Under the pieces are notes generated by a model. It was not told the DNA's origin. It saw only the letters and a program-made list of their open reading frames with translations, and did not search any database. A stretch of DNA of 64,000 nt from an uncultured Clostridia bacterium (GTDB lineage: Bacteria > Bacillota > Clostridia > Oscillospirales > Oscillospiraceae), in assembly GCA_946186375.1 (NCBI GenBank), contig CAMHMZ010000003.1:86905-150904 (forward strand). The letters run 5' to 3'. The position numbers and the translations under genes are program-made. Each line of letters opens with the position of its first letter. Position 1 is the first letter of the stretch. This document shows, in pieces, positions 3,738 through 61,622 of the stretch.

Positions 3738-3782
3738 AGAAAACGCCCTCCGGCCTTGTGGCCGGAGGGTGTTTTCTGGTCA
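3738..3782 (+). terminator. Rho-independent terminator
   Basis: CAGAAAACgCCCTCCGGCCttgtGGCCGGAGGGtGTTTTCTG. Confidence 0.85.
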
Positions 3783-3960
3783 GTTTTCAGTTCTCAGAAA
3801 GAGAAACGGAAGTTTAGCGAGGAGTTTGAAATGATGTCGTAGGGGGCGATGCCCTCATCGCCCCGCCTGTACAGGTCGGATTTGCGGGCCGATCAGGGGA
3901 TCGGCCCCTACGACAGCCCTCGTTTCTCTTCATTCCGAACTCCGCATTCCGAATTTGTCT
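3781..3960. repeat. Modular intergenic repeat cluster R1
   Basis: TTTTCAG units, GTCGTAGGGGGCGATGCCC...GGCCCCTACGAC hairpin, then CATTCCGAACTCCGCATTCCGAAT. Confidence 0.8.
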
Positions 3961-10772: not shown

Positions 10773-10809
10773 AAAATACTCCAGGCGCGCAGCTTTGTCA
10801 AGAGGTGAT

Positions 10810-11260
10810 ATTCAGTTTTCAGAAGTCAGTTTTCAGATAAGCGGGGGGAAAAGTTTTTAGTTTTAAGTTTTTAGTTTTTAGGAGAGCGCGATAAATTTAG
10901 AGTTTGAAAACAATGAGGAATGAGGAGTTAGGAGCGAGGAATGAAGGGAAACGAAGGATAGAGCGAGGAAATTGGCGTCTGCGCCGTAGGGGGCGATGCC
11001 CTCATCGCCCCGCGCGGTATGGATGAAAAGTTGAATAAAGCCCCGGCGAATACGTACCATTCTGCGAATTCGCCGGGGTTTTTCGTATAATCTTTGGCTT
11101 TTCCTGCCGGGCCGTCGAGGGCGCCGGCCCCTACAAAAGGACGCCCGTACCCCGTAGGGACGAGCATTGCTCGTCCGCCGAGCCTGCATCGTGTCTGCGG
11201 GCGATTCGTGCTCGTCCCTGCGGGGAAAACAAACATATCGCGGCGGGGATCCCGCCGCGG
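10810..11260. repeat. Modular intergenic repeat cluster R2 (composite)
   Basis: TTTTCAG/TTTTTAG units, GGAATGAGGAG units, GTAGGGGGCGATGCCCTCATCGCCCC, CCCCGGCGAAT...ATTCGCCGGGG, GGGACGAGCATTGCTCGTCC. Confidence 0.75.
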
Positions 11261-11943: not shown

Positions 11944-12104
11944 ATACTATTATCTGATAAGAAGTAGACAAAGATTTGCGAGATGGATTTGTGTCAGGCG
12001 AGGCATCGTCCGCAGGGAATACTTTGTGTATTGCCAAGGACGATAACGAAGTATGGCGCAAATCCAGCCGCAAAGATTGTCTGCTTTCTATCAGATAATA
12101 GTAT
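11944..12104. repeat. Element A: 161-bp long-hairpin intergenic element
   Basis: Ends ATACTATTATCTGATA/TATCAGATAATAGTAT (perfect); internal palindromic arms; centre GCAGGGAATACTTTGTGTATTGCCAAG. Confidence 0.85.
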
Positions 12105-15886: not shown

Positions 15887-15962
15887 TTTTCAGCTTTTAA
15901 AAGAGAAACGGGAATTAATCGCTCTCCTGAAAACTGAAAACTGACTTCTGAAAACTGAAAAA
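15887..15962. repeat. Modular intergenic repeat cluster R3
   Basis: TCCTGAAAACTGAAAACTGACTTCTGAAAACTGAAAA. Confidence 0.75.
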
Positions 15963-20969: not shown

Positions 20970-21137
20970 TCATGAGGAATGAGAAGTGAGGAATCAGGAA
21001 TTGGGCAGCGTCCAACAATGATACAAGAAATGGACGTTTTCCCTCATTCCTAACTCCTCACTCCTAACTCCTCATTCCTAATTTGCCGCTAAACTCTAAT
21101 TTGTCGCTCTTCTAAAAACTAAAAACTTAAAACTAAC
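20970..21137. repeat. Modular intergenic repeat cluster R4
   Basis: ATGAGGAATGAGAAG..., CCTCATTCCTAACTCCTCACTCCTAACTCC, CTAAACTCTAATTTGTCGCTCTTCTAAAAACTAAAAAC. Confidence 0.75.
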
Positions 21138-23543: not shown

Positions 23544-23608
23544 GCCGCGCCTCCGGGATCAAAGGATAGTACTACTATATGCGCCAAATGTTACAAAATC
23601 AAGCCGTC

Positions 23609-23785
23609 GAAGTTTTCAGTTTTTAGTTTTTAGTTTTTAGAAAGAGAATCGTCAATTCCTGCGCAGATCTTTCGTTTCCCTTCATTCCGCATTCCGAATT
23701 CTGAATTTTGTCGTTCTCCTGAAAACTGAAAACTGGCTTCTGAAAACTCATGATTCCGAATTCCGCATTCCGAATTCCGCATTCG
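23609..23785. repeat. Modular intergenic repeat cluster R5
   Basis: TTTTCAG/TTTTTAG units; CTTCATTCCGCATTCCGAATTC; ATTCCGAATTCCGCATTCCGAATTCCGCATTC running into the downstream CDS. Confidence 0.8.
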
Positions 23786-29582: not shown

Positions 29583-29864
29583 TTTTCAGTTTTCAGGAGC
29601 GTGACAAATAAGAGTTTATCGCTGAGTTTATAATGAAGCCGTAGGGGCGGCCCTAAAGGACTAGCTTCGCGTCGCTATCAGCCGCCCGCGGACACGGTAC
29701 TGGTTTGACGGGCGGCTGATAGCCGCCCCTACGACGTCATCCTGAGCGAGCGAAGCGAGTCGAAGGATCTTAAGATTCTTCGTCGCTGGCGCTCCTCAGA
29801 ATGACAGCGCTAAACTCTAATTTGCCGTTCTCCTGAAAACTAAAAACTTAAAACTAAAAACTTT
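29583..29864. repeat. Modular intergenic repeat cluster R6
   Basis: TTTTCAG units; 97-bp CCGTAGGGGCGGCC...GCCGCCCCTACGAC module (29639-29735); CATCCTGAGCGAGCGAAGCGAGTCGAAGGATC; CTAAACTCTAATTTGCCGTTCTCCTGAAAACTAAAAAC. Confidence 0.85.
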
Positions 29865-32492: not shown

Positions 32493-32525
32493 GTAAACGC
32501 TGATCAATACGCTGCGGCGCTTTAC
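32493..32525. repeat. Element D: 33-bp mini-derivative of elements B/C
   Basis: GTAAACGCTGATCAATACGCTGCGGCGCTTTAC; matches one end of B/C then ends in TTTAC. Confidence 0.6.
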
Positions 32526-34064: not shown

Positions 34065-34130
34065 GCTGTTCCCTCTCGCCTCCGCTCTGTCGAAGGTTCT
34101 GACATGAGTATAGCACAGTTTGCCGAAATA

Positions 34131-34233
34131 GTCTTCAGAATTCAGTTCTCAGTTTTCAGAAAGAGAGACGGACGTTTCGCACAAGCTCTTCGTTTTCCTC
34201 ATTCCGAATTCCGAACTCCGCATTCCGAATTCA
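34131..34233. repeat. Modular intergenic repeat cluster R7
   Basis: CAGTTCTCAGTTTTCAGAAAGAGAGACGG...CATTCCGAATTCCGAACTCCGCATTCCGAATTC. Confidence 0.75.
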
Positions 34234-35912: not shown

Positions 35913-36193
35913 GTTTTCATAAAAGAGAAAAAAGTTTTTAGTTTTCAGTTTTCAGTTTTTAGGAGAACGACAAATTGGAGTTTAGTGTCGAATTTGGAAT
36001 GAAGGAAACGAAGGACAGCGCGAGGAAATTGACGTCCACGTCGTAGGGGCGGCTATCAGCCGCCCACCAAGCCCGTACCATGTCCGCGGGCGGCTGATAG
36101 CGACGCGAAGCTAGTCCTTTAGGGCCGCCCCTACGGCATCCTTTCAAACGCAGCGCTAAACTTCCGTTTATCTCTCTGAAAACTGAAAACTGC
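35913..36193. repeat. Modular intergenic repeat cluster R8
   Basis: TTTTCAG/TTTTTAG units, GAGAACGACAAATTGGAGTTTAG, 97-bp GTCGTAGGGGCGGC...GCCGCCCCTACGG module (36040-36136), CTGAAAACTGAAAACTG. Confidence 0.85.
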
Positions 36194-37581: not shown

Positions 37582-37774
37582 TTCTGAAAACTGAGTAAAC
37601 GCTGATCAAATCGCCTGCGGCGCCTCCCGGAAAATTTGCGCCCTGATTTCGTCACTTTTTCTTGAAATACACAAAGTATTCCTGCAAAAAAGTGCCATCA
37701 TCAGAACACAAATTTTCTCGGGATCCGCTCTTGCCGATTTAATCATCGTTTACCTGAAAACTGACTTCTGAAAA
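37582..37774. repeat. Modular repeat cluster R9 interrupted by element B
   Basis: TTCTGAAAACTGA | element B | CTGAAAACTGACTTCTGAAAACTA. Confidence 0.8.
37595..37753. mobile_element. Element B: 159-bp MITE-like palindromic element
   Basis: Ends GTAAACGCTGATCAAATCGCC / GCCGATTTAATCATCGTTTAC; flanked by direct CTGA; reverse complement identical to element C. Confidence 0.85.
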
Positions 37775-59007: not shown

Positions 59008-59084
59008 GCTGGGGTACCTCCTTCTGTTGTATAAATCAGCGTATCATTTTCCTGGCCGCAAGTCAACATGGAGCGAAATGAAAG

Positions 59085-59243
59085 GTAAACGATGATTAAA
59101 TCGGCAAGAGCGGATCCCGAGAAAATTTGTGTTCTGATGATGGCACTTTTTTGCAGGAATACTTTGTGTATTTCAAGAAAAAGTGACGAAATCAGGGCGC
59201 AAATTTTCCGGGAGGCGCCGCAGGCGATTTGATCAGCGTTTAC
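59085..59243. mobile_element. Element C: 159-bp MITE-like palindromic element
   Basis: Identical (159/159 by eye) to the reverse complement of element B; flanked by direct AAAG. Confidence 0.85.
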
Positions 59244-59250
59244 AAAGAAA

Positions 59251-59336
59251 CTATATAGCAAAAACCGCCTCGAAACAGTATATTTTAAGACGATTTCTGC
59301 CTGCCTTGCGGTAAAGGGCGTCTGTCCCGAGGTTTA
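59251..59336. repeat. Hairpin repeat copy 1 (AAATCGTCTTGAAA family)
   Basis: CTATATAGCAAAAACCGCCTCGAAACAGTATATTTTAAGACGATTTCTGCCTG...TGTCCCGAGGTTT. Confidence 0.65.
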
Positions 59337-60743: not shown

Positions 60744-60790
60744 CAACAGAAATCGTCTTGAAGCAAAGCATTTCAAGACGATTTCTGGCA
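60744..60790. repeat. Hairpin repeat copy 2
   Basis: AACAGAAATCGTCTTGAAgcaaagcaTTTCAAGACGATTTCTG. Confidence 0.75.
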
Positions 60791-61536: not shown

Positions 61537-61622
61537 ATATATAGCAAAAATCGTCTTGAAACGAAACATTTCAAGACGATTTCTGTCTGTGTTGCACCAA
61601 ACGGTGTCCAGACGAGGGTTTT
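61537..61622. repeat. Hairpin repeat copy 3
   Basis: ATATATAGCAAAAATCGTCTTGAAACGAAACATTTCAAGACGATTTCTGTCTGTGTTGC...CGAGGGTTT. Confidence 0.75.

Follow-up and report, generated by a model that had tools for sequence, protein, structure and literature searches.

Two base-for-base identical palindromes of 159 bp lie in opposite orientations within a 64,000-nucleotide stretch of DNA from an uncultured Clostridia bacterium of the Oscillospiraceae (the whole stretch is called the window here), and they raise a double question: are these hairpins mobile elements, moved by an enzyme encoded elsewhere, and does their interior do anything besides fold? Our comparisons, which are of sequences throughout, lead us to conclude that the repeat is an IS5-type MITE containing an RNA-like module, of no Rfam 15 family, that is common to unrelated MITEs. 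The reading we prefer, with a probability of roughly 60%, is that of a MITE moved by an IS5-type enzyme and carrying a covarying RNA module, which would be recognised by a clostridial protein when transcribed.

The anatomy of the element is largely as originally predicted: copies B and C (Table 1) are 100% identical over 159 bp in inverted orientation, have imperfect terminal inverted repeats, and are flanked by CTGA on both sides and by AAAG on both sides, respectively. Being short, repeated, bounded by terminal inverted repeats of ~21 bp and devoid of an ORF, the element is a MITE. It does form the long hairpin expected of it (z = -6.6 for the single-stranded DNA, with 0 of 200 shuffled sequences equally stable); what had been overlooked is that its interior holds a conserved, covarying module common to unrelated mobile elements. 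When folded as RNA, the structured strand reaches -79 kcal/mol and its complement -56 kcal/mol. If the two flanks of copy B are joined, a CTGAAAACT repeat is restored, as had been claimed, but the intact motif to which it corresponds lies at 15927-15956 and not at 15939-15960.

Table 1. Positions of the elements and repeats discussed (coordinates of the window unless loci are named).
Feature	Position	Strand	Remarks
MITE copy B, 159 bp	37595..37753	-	RNA-like structure on minus strand
Copy B target duplication CTGA, left	37591..37594	.	
Copy B target duplication CTGA, right	37754..37757	.	
Copy B left terminal inverted repeat	37595..37615	+	GTAAACGCTGATCAAATCGCC
Copy B right terminal inverted repeat	37733..37753	-	minus strand reads GTAAACGATGATTAAATCGGC
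Copy B conserved structured core	37629..37719	-	model R2, 64.6 bits
MITE copy C, same sequence as B, inverted	59085..59243	+	structured strand is plus
Copy C target duplication AAAG, left	59081..59084	.	
Copy C target duplication AAAG, right	59244..59247	.	
Copy C conserved structured core	59119..59209	+	model R1 (other MITE family only), E = 1.1e-7
Solitary left end of the 159-bp MITE family	32493..32520	+	CTAA before GTAAACGCTGATCAATACGC, remainder lost
IS630-type MITE carrying the same core	11947..12101	+	TA at 11945-11946 and 12102-12103
Structured core in the IS630-type MITE	11980..12069	+	99 bits
~280-bp composite elements at L164, L166, L167, L169, L170, L171, L174, L175, L161	around 1170-1712	either	
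CTGAAAACT/AGTTTTCAG-type arrays	10804-10888, 15902-15956, 21087-21136, 23608-23748, 29808-29864, 34127-34166, 35930-35985		
Inverted-repeat family GCTATCAGCCGCCC...GGGCGGCTGATAGC	29598-29737, 36038-36177, also 3776-3845		
Palindromic repeat CAGAAATCGTCTTGAA...TTCAAGACGATTTCTG	59259-59299, 60747-60787, 61545-61585		3 copies in 2.3 kb

The repetition of B and C is not due to chance, since ~31 copies or fragments of the element, 5 of them identical, occur in the draft genome, which comprises 3.29 Mb in 133 contigs and is 84% complete; several sit at contig ends, as repeats should, and the loss of repeats from metagenome-assembled genomes bears on this count as on the distribution counts given below. 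Tabulating the 4-mers that flank the copies, a check that the original prediction had proposed, yields identical pairs at 16 of the 26 scorable copies, where random re-pairing of left with right flanks gives 3.7, and at 49/94 copies in relatives, against 9.4 by chance. YTAR is found at 37 of the 52 flanks in the genome itself. An insertion event can be read directly at locus L003 (contig C18), where a copy with TTAG on both sides is nested within another, IS630-type mobile hairpin: removal of the element and of one TTAG leaves a junction that aligns unbroken to intact hairpins of other genomes (172 bp, 84% identical to L142). The gene beside copy B has orthologues in many relatives, and its locus is read without the element in 18 of 19 of them, the exception (G050) having its own 159-bp-family copy there with other ends; the flanks of the 18 are too diverged for the orthologous empty site to be rebuilt base by base. 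The view of a recently mobile, non-autonomous element that duplicates 4 bp is thus supported by near-identical copies, genuine duplications, a nested insertion and element-free orthologous loci. A search for phage or plasmid copies found none.

Other repeats lie nearby. The CTGAAAACT/AGTTTTCAG-type short-repeat arrays, which are intergenic, host several MITE insertions, and at L031 (G000:C15:26704-26756) the 159-bp element is reduced by internal deletion to 53 bp, with CTAA and TTAA as flanks. The window also has the GCTATCAGCCGCCC...GGGCGGCTGATAGC family, which gives no match to the core models described below, and the clustered CAGAAATCGTCTTGAA...TTCAAGACGATTTCTG palindrome.

Which enzyme moves the element has to be judged from relatives, because the 84%-complete draft genome has no PF01609 transposase. 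IS5-family elements of the genus are 1135-1223 bp long, encode transposases matching NF033581, PF01609 and PF05598, and end in TTAA-GGCAACACCGC and TTAA-GGAAACACTGA/GGAAACGCTGAATAAATCGG; their two end types, GGAAACGCTGA and GGCAACACCGC, are the two alternative ends seen on relatives' copies of the 159-bp MITE, and their duplications are TTAA, CTAA or TTAG. These matching end types and YTAR duplications make mobilisation in trans, as first proposed, appear well supported. An IS5-type element from another genus has an end, GAATACGATGATTAAA, that agrees with the right end of the MITE at 14 of 16 bases. The target YTAR is documented for IS5 (PMC10359306), and the 159-bp MITE mostly makes the 4-bp YTAR duplication that marks this family. 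Set against IS5-family ISs and their MITE derivatives, the element is alike in its YTAR-type duplications and, through relatives' copies, in the end types of the genus; it is unlike the ISs in lacking an ORF, in an interior that derives from none of the ISs examined, and in its exact GTAAACG ends, since a full IS with such ends, the search for which had been suggested, was found neither in the draft genome nor in the relatives examined. REP sequences are 20-40 nt hairpins with a linked Y1 transposase and no target-site duplication, and a REP/RAYT (HuH) identity was rejected for an element of 159 bp with 4-bp duplications. The hairpin is thus a real mobile element, and its mover is most likely a borrowed IS5-type enzyme.

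The interior has a history of its own. Many relatives match the 159-bp MITE at interior positions 18-147 only and have different ends, and a core of ~91 nt, laid out as GAG..stem..RA-GGC..stem..GCAG..hairpin..CAAG..stem..AACG..stem..CC, is conserved while the ends of the elements change. The window holds one of ~20 genome copies of a second MITE that has central motifs in common with the first and is of IS630 type, having TA on both sides and ends and subterminal sequence like those of the genus's IS630-family (PF13358) elements, some of which have TA-flanked CTAATTTTCAATAGAAAGTAGACAA ends (for example L306 and L302). A covariance model, R1, built solely from ten cores of the IS630-type family matches the window only twice at E up to 10, and one of these matches is the core of copy C; the other hairpin repeats of the window give none. 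Relatives' copies of the 159-bp family match R1 always on the same element strand, with E from 1e-8 to 1e-5; the E-values of R1 and of R2, the model built from the combined alignment, are rough, and alignment A4 was fitted to the model. Autonomous IS5 and IS630 elements lack the core, the single match (L298) being a MITE that abuts an IS630 element.

At that locus (L298, 880-2027), the IS630-family element stands directly beside the core-carrying IS630-type MITE, and the two apparently have a TA in common. Several IS630-type MITEs (L120, L134, L142, L128, L086 and others) end 4-5 bp within a called gene end, a pattern as if they had inserted at the TA of a stop codon.

The core is widespread: R1 matches 74 of 102 genomes of the genus, and 109/301 sampled genomes of the family (60/106 genera), and R2 matches 81/392 sampled genomes of the class (53/223 genera), all of these counts being lower bounds because few candidates were scored per genome. 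Most of the named core-carrying genomes are MAGs of Oscillospiraceae and Ruminococcaceae from the rumen. The element ends vary among core loci (TA-type, GG-type and others), and in some genera two convergent cores lie inside a larger element with ends that resemble a tRNA T-arm, GGGTTCGACTCCC. That the core is also found within the hairpins of a second, unrelated mobile family, in many gut and rumen Clostridia, suggests that it probably does more than hop.

The larger composites are palindromes of ~280 bp with T-arm-like ends (GGGGTTCGACTCCCC) and a variable, complementary acceptor-like stem; the one at L170 is flanked by TTAA. A tRNA or tmRNA identity was rejected for them, ARAGORN making no call over the cores.

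Several lines of evidence indicate that the core is RNA-like: (i) in a set of 76 distinct cores drawn from different types of element, two-sided changes affect 26 of the 28 core pairs, and paired cells make up 97.1% of the alignment, against 71.4% in shuffled and less than 40% in slid controls; the covariation score is 0.687 (control, 0.208), so that compensatory changes exceed what shuffling and sliding produce. (ii) Internal-loop columns are more conserved than stem columns (1.35 versus 1.04 bits), the bases kept being GAG, AAGG, GCAG, CAAG, AACG and the terminal CC. (iii) On a tree of 112 distinct copies of the 159-bp family, retrieved with BLAST or through an exact central pattern and hence without selection for structure, Watson-Crick pairs of the core changed to G-U 53 times and to A-C 23 times (14:2 on internal branches, p ~0.004); the same count in the terminal repeats gave 45 G-U and 33 A-C, which is not significant. 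The IS630-type and other cores gave 29 G-U against 6 A-C, in a sample chosen by a model that itself leans that way. Since this excess is one-stranded, the selected form would be that strand, single-stranded, and most simply RNA.

Known RNA families do not account for it. Rfam 15 gave nothing in the window at gathering score except two tRNAs, and on the cores of 13 loci no family at gathering score except one T-box call overlapping L155. Matches to miRNA-precursor and other models on the elements fell far below threshold (the best, mir-4796, at 32.9 against 90 bits) and were set aside as chance. A hammerhead-like CTGATGA...CGAAA pattern in the 159-bp family was also rejected: no third stem is apparent by eye, and the IS630-type family does not retain these bases. 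The T-box call at L155 (1369-1744) overlaps a core-carrying element and is probably a leader with an inserted hairpin element.

Could the interior nevertheless be the functionless relic palindrome of an ordinary IS5-type MITE, its core common to other elements through one past recombination and its pairs kept by template-switching correction between the arms? We consider this unlikely, yet it is the alternative that survives best. MITEs with long hairpins occur in many bacteria (PMC2229807, PMC10969869), and template switching within an inverted repeat can also yield two-sided changes. The placement of the element would suit neutral survivors too: by gene calls that were hexamer-based and made for this analysis, all 126 IS5-type MITE loci are intergenic, and the structured strand has no preferred orientation relative to the gene upstream (among copies with a called upstream gene, 58 are sense and 60 antisense). 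However, arm correction restores perfect pairs and should neither favour G-U over A-C on one strand, preserve unpaired loop bases during the turnover of stems, nor maintain a single core in elements of several types throughout a class.

A poorer prospect is that the module acts as single-stranded DNA, one strand extruding at replication forks and being bound by a host or element protein that aids transposition or replication. The very stable fold of the element as single-stranded DNA would suit such a role, DNA too tolerates G-T better than A-C, and HuH transposases use single-stranded DNA hairpins (PMC6006769). Use of a single replication strand, however, should leave a bias relative to local GC skew, and the absence of one (57 versus 65) leads us to reject it; the 4-bp and TA duplications, moreover, fit DDE transposases acting on double-stranded DNA.

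The weakest proposal, and in our view a very improbable one, is that MITEs spread a regulatory RNA or mRNA element of use to the host (an sRNA, for instance, or an element stabilising 3' ends), which would fit the position of copy B on the mRNA sense strand, with a stop codon on one side and a terminator-like hairpin on the other, the lean of IS630-type copies to gene 3' ends (16/34 between convergent genes) and the orientation-dependent effect of ERIC elements on mRNA stability (PMC2229807), but the IS5-type copies, unlike a selected host regulator, have no gene or strand preference. Most copies are therefore not placed for transcription of the structured strand from the upstream gene, a point that counts against our preferred reading as well, and an mRNA-element orientation is rejected for this family. 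The lack of bias does not speak against an RNA that would act whenever a copy is transcribed.

Under the IS5-moved RNA module that we favour, an IS5-family DDE transposase (the class being judged from relatives) would recognise the ~21-bp inverted ends in trans, insert the MITE at YTAR-like sites and duplicate 4 bp. The interior is not filler: the stems of the core covary, and its loop bases are kept, in two transposition systems at least, the IS5-type and the IS630-type, and throughout the class Clostridia. A transcript running through any copy would fold into the core hairpin, whose internal loops might be recognised by a protein that is widely conserved in clostridia, such as a processing nuclease resembling RNase III or some other RNA-binding protein; by processing or insulating the transcript, this protein would make intergenic insertions tolerable and so let module-carrying elements spread. 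We infer a role in RNA processing or protein binding, the partner being, on the analogy of NEMIS and ERIC (PMC2229807, PMC10969869), most likely a processing nuclease. It seems about an even chance that the core represents a new structured-RNA class which MITEs from two or more unrelated transposase families, and further clostridial palindromes, have taken up: a passenger RNA to which these mobile hairpins would owe their success.

Comparable elements are known. A similar logic governs RUP of Streptococcus pneumoniae, a MITE whose hairpin is short and which IS630-Spn1 mobilises in trans; it uses TA targets as does the IS630-type sister family in the window, and it differs in sequence and host, and the account of RUP in PMC2229807 describes no cross-family core. 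Correia/NEMIS and ERIC (PMC2229807, PMC10969869) are also hairpin MITEs that lie between genes, and their transcripts undergo processing or alter mRNA stability; they are likened here by description and not by sequence, and differ in that the inner module of our element is common to MITEs with unrelated ends. IStrons (PMC4227781) similarly pair an RNA module with a DNA transposon, whereas the 159-bp MITE has neither a group I intron nor signs of self-splicing. In the open-access literature searched we found no description of a structured module common to MITEs whose transposases belong to different families. Among the motifs listed with PMC8040213 are 20 palindromic candidates that lack an explanation.

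The usual expectation for MITEs is that the ends are conserved and the interior is free. Here this is reversed, with an RNA-like module that persists across transposition systems. If the module is functional, the interiors of MITEs would be under selection and could pass from one transposon to another, and transcription, processing and protein binding could be tested directly on a structure that is very common between the genes of gut and rumen Clostridia.
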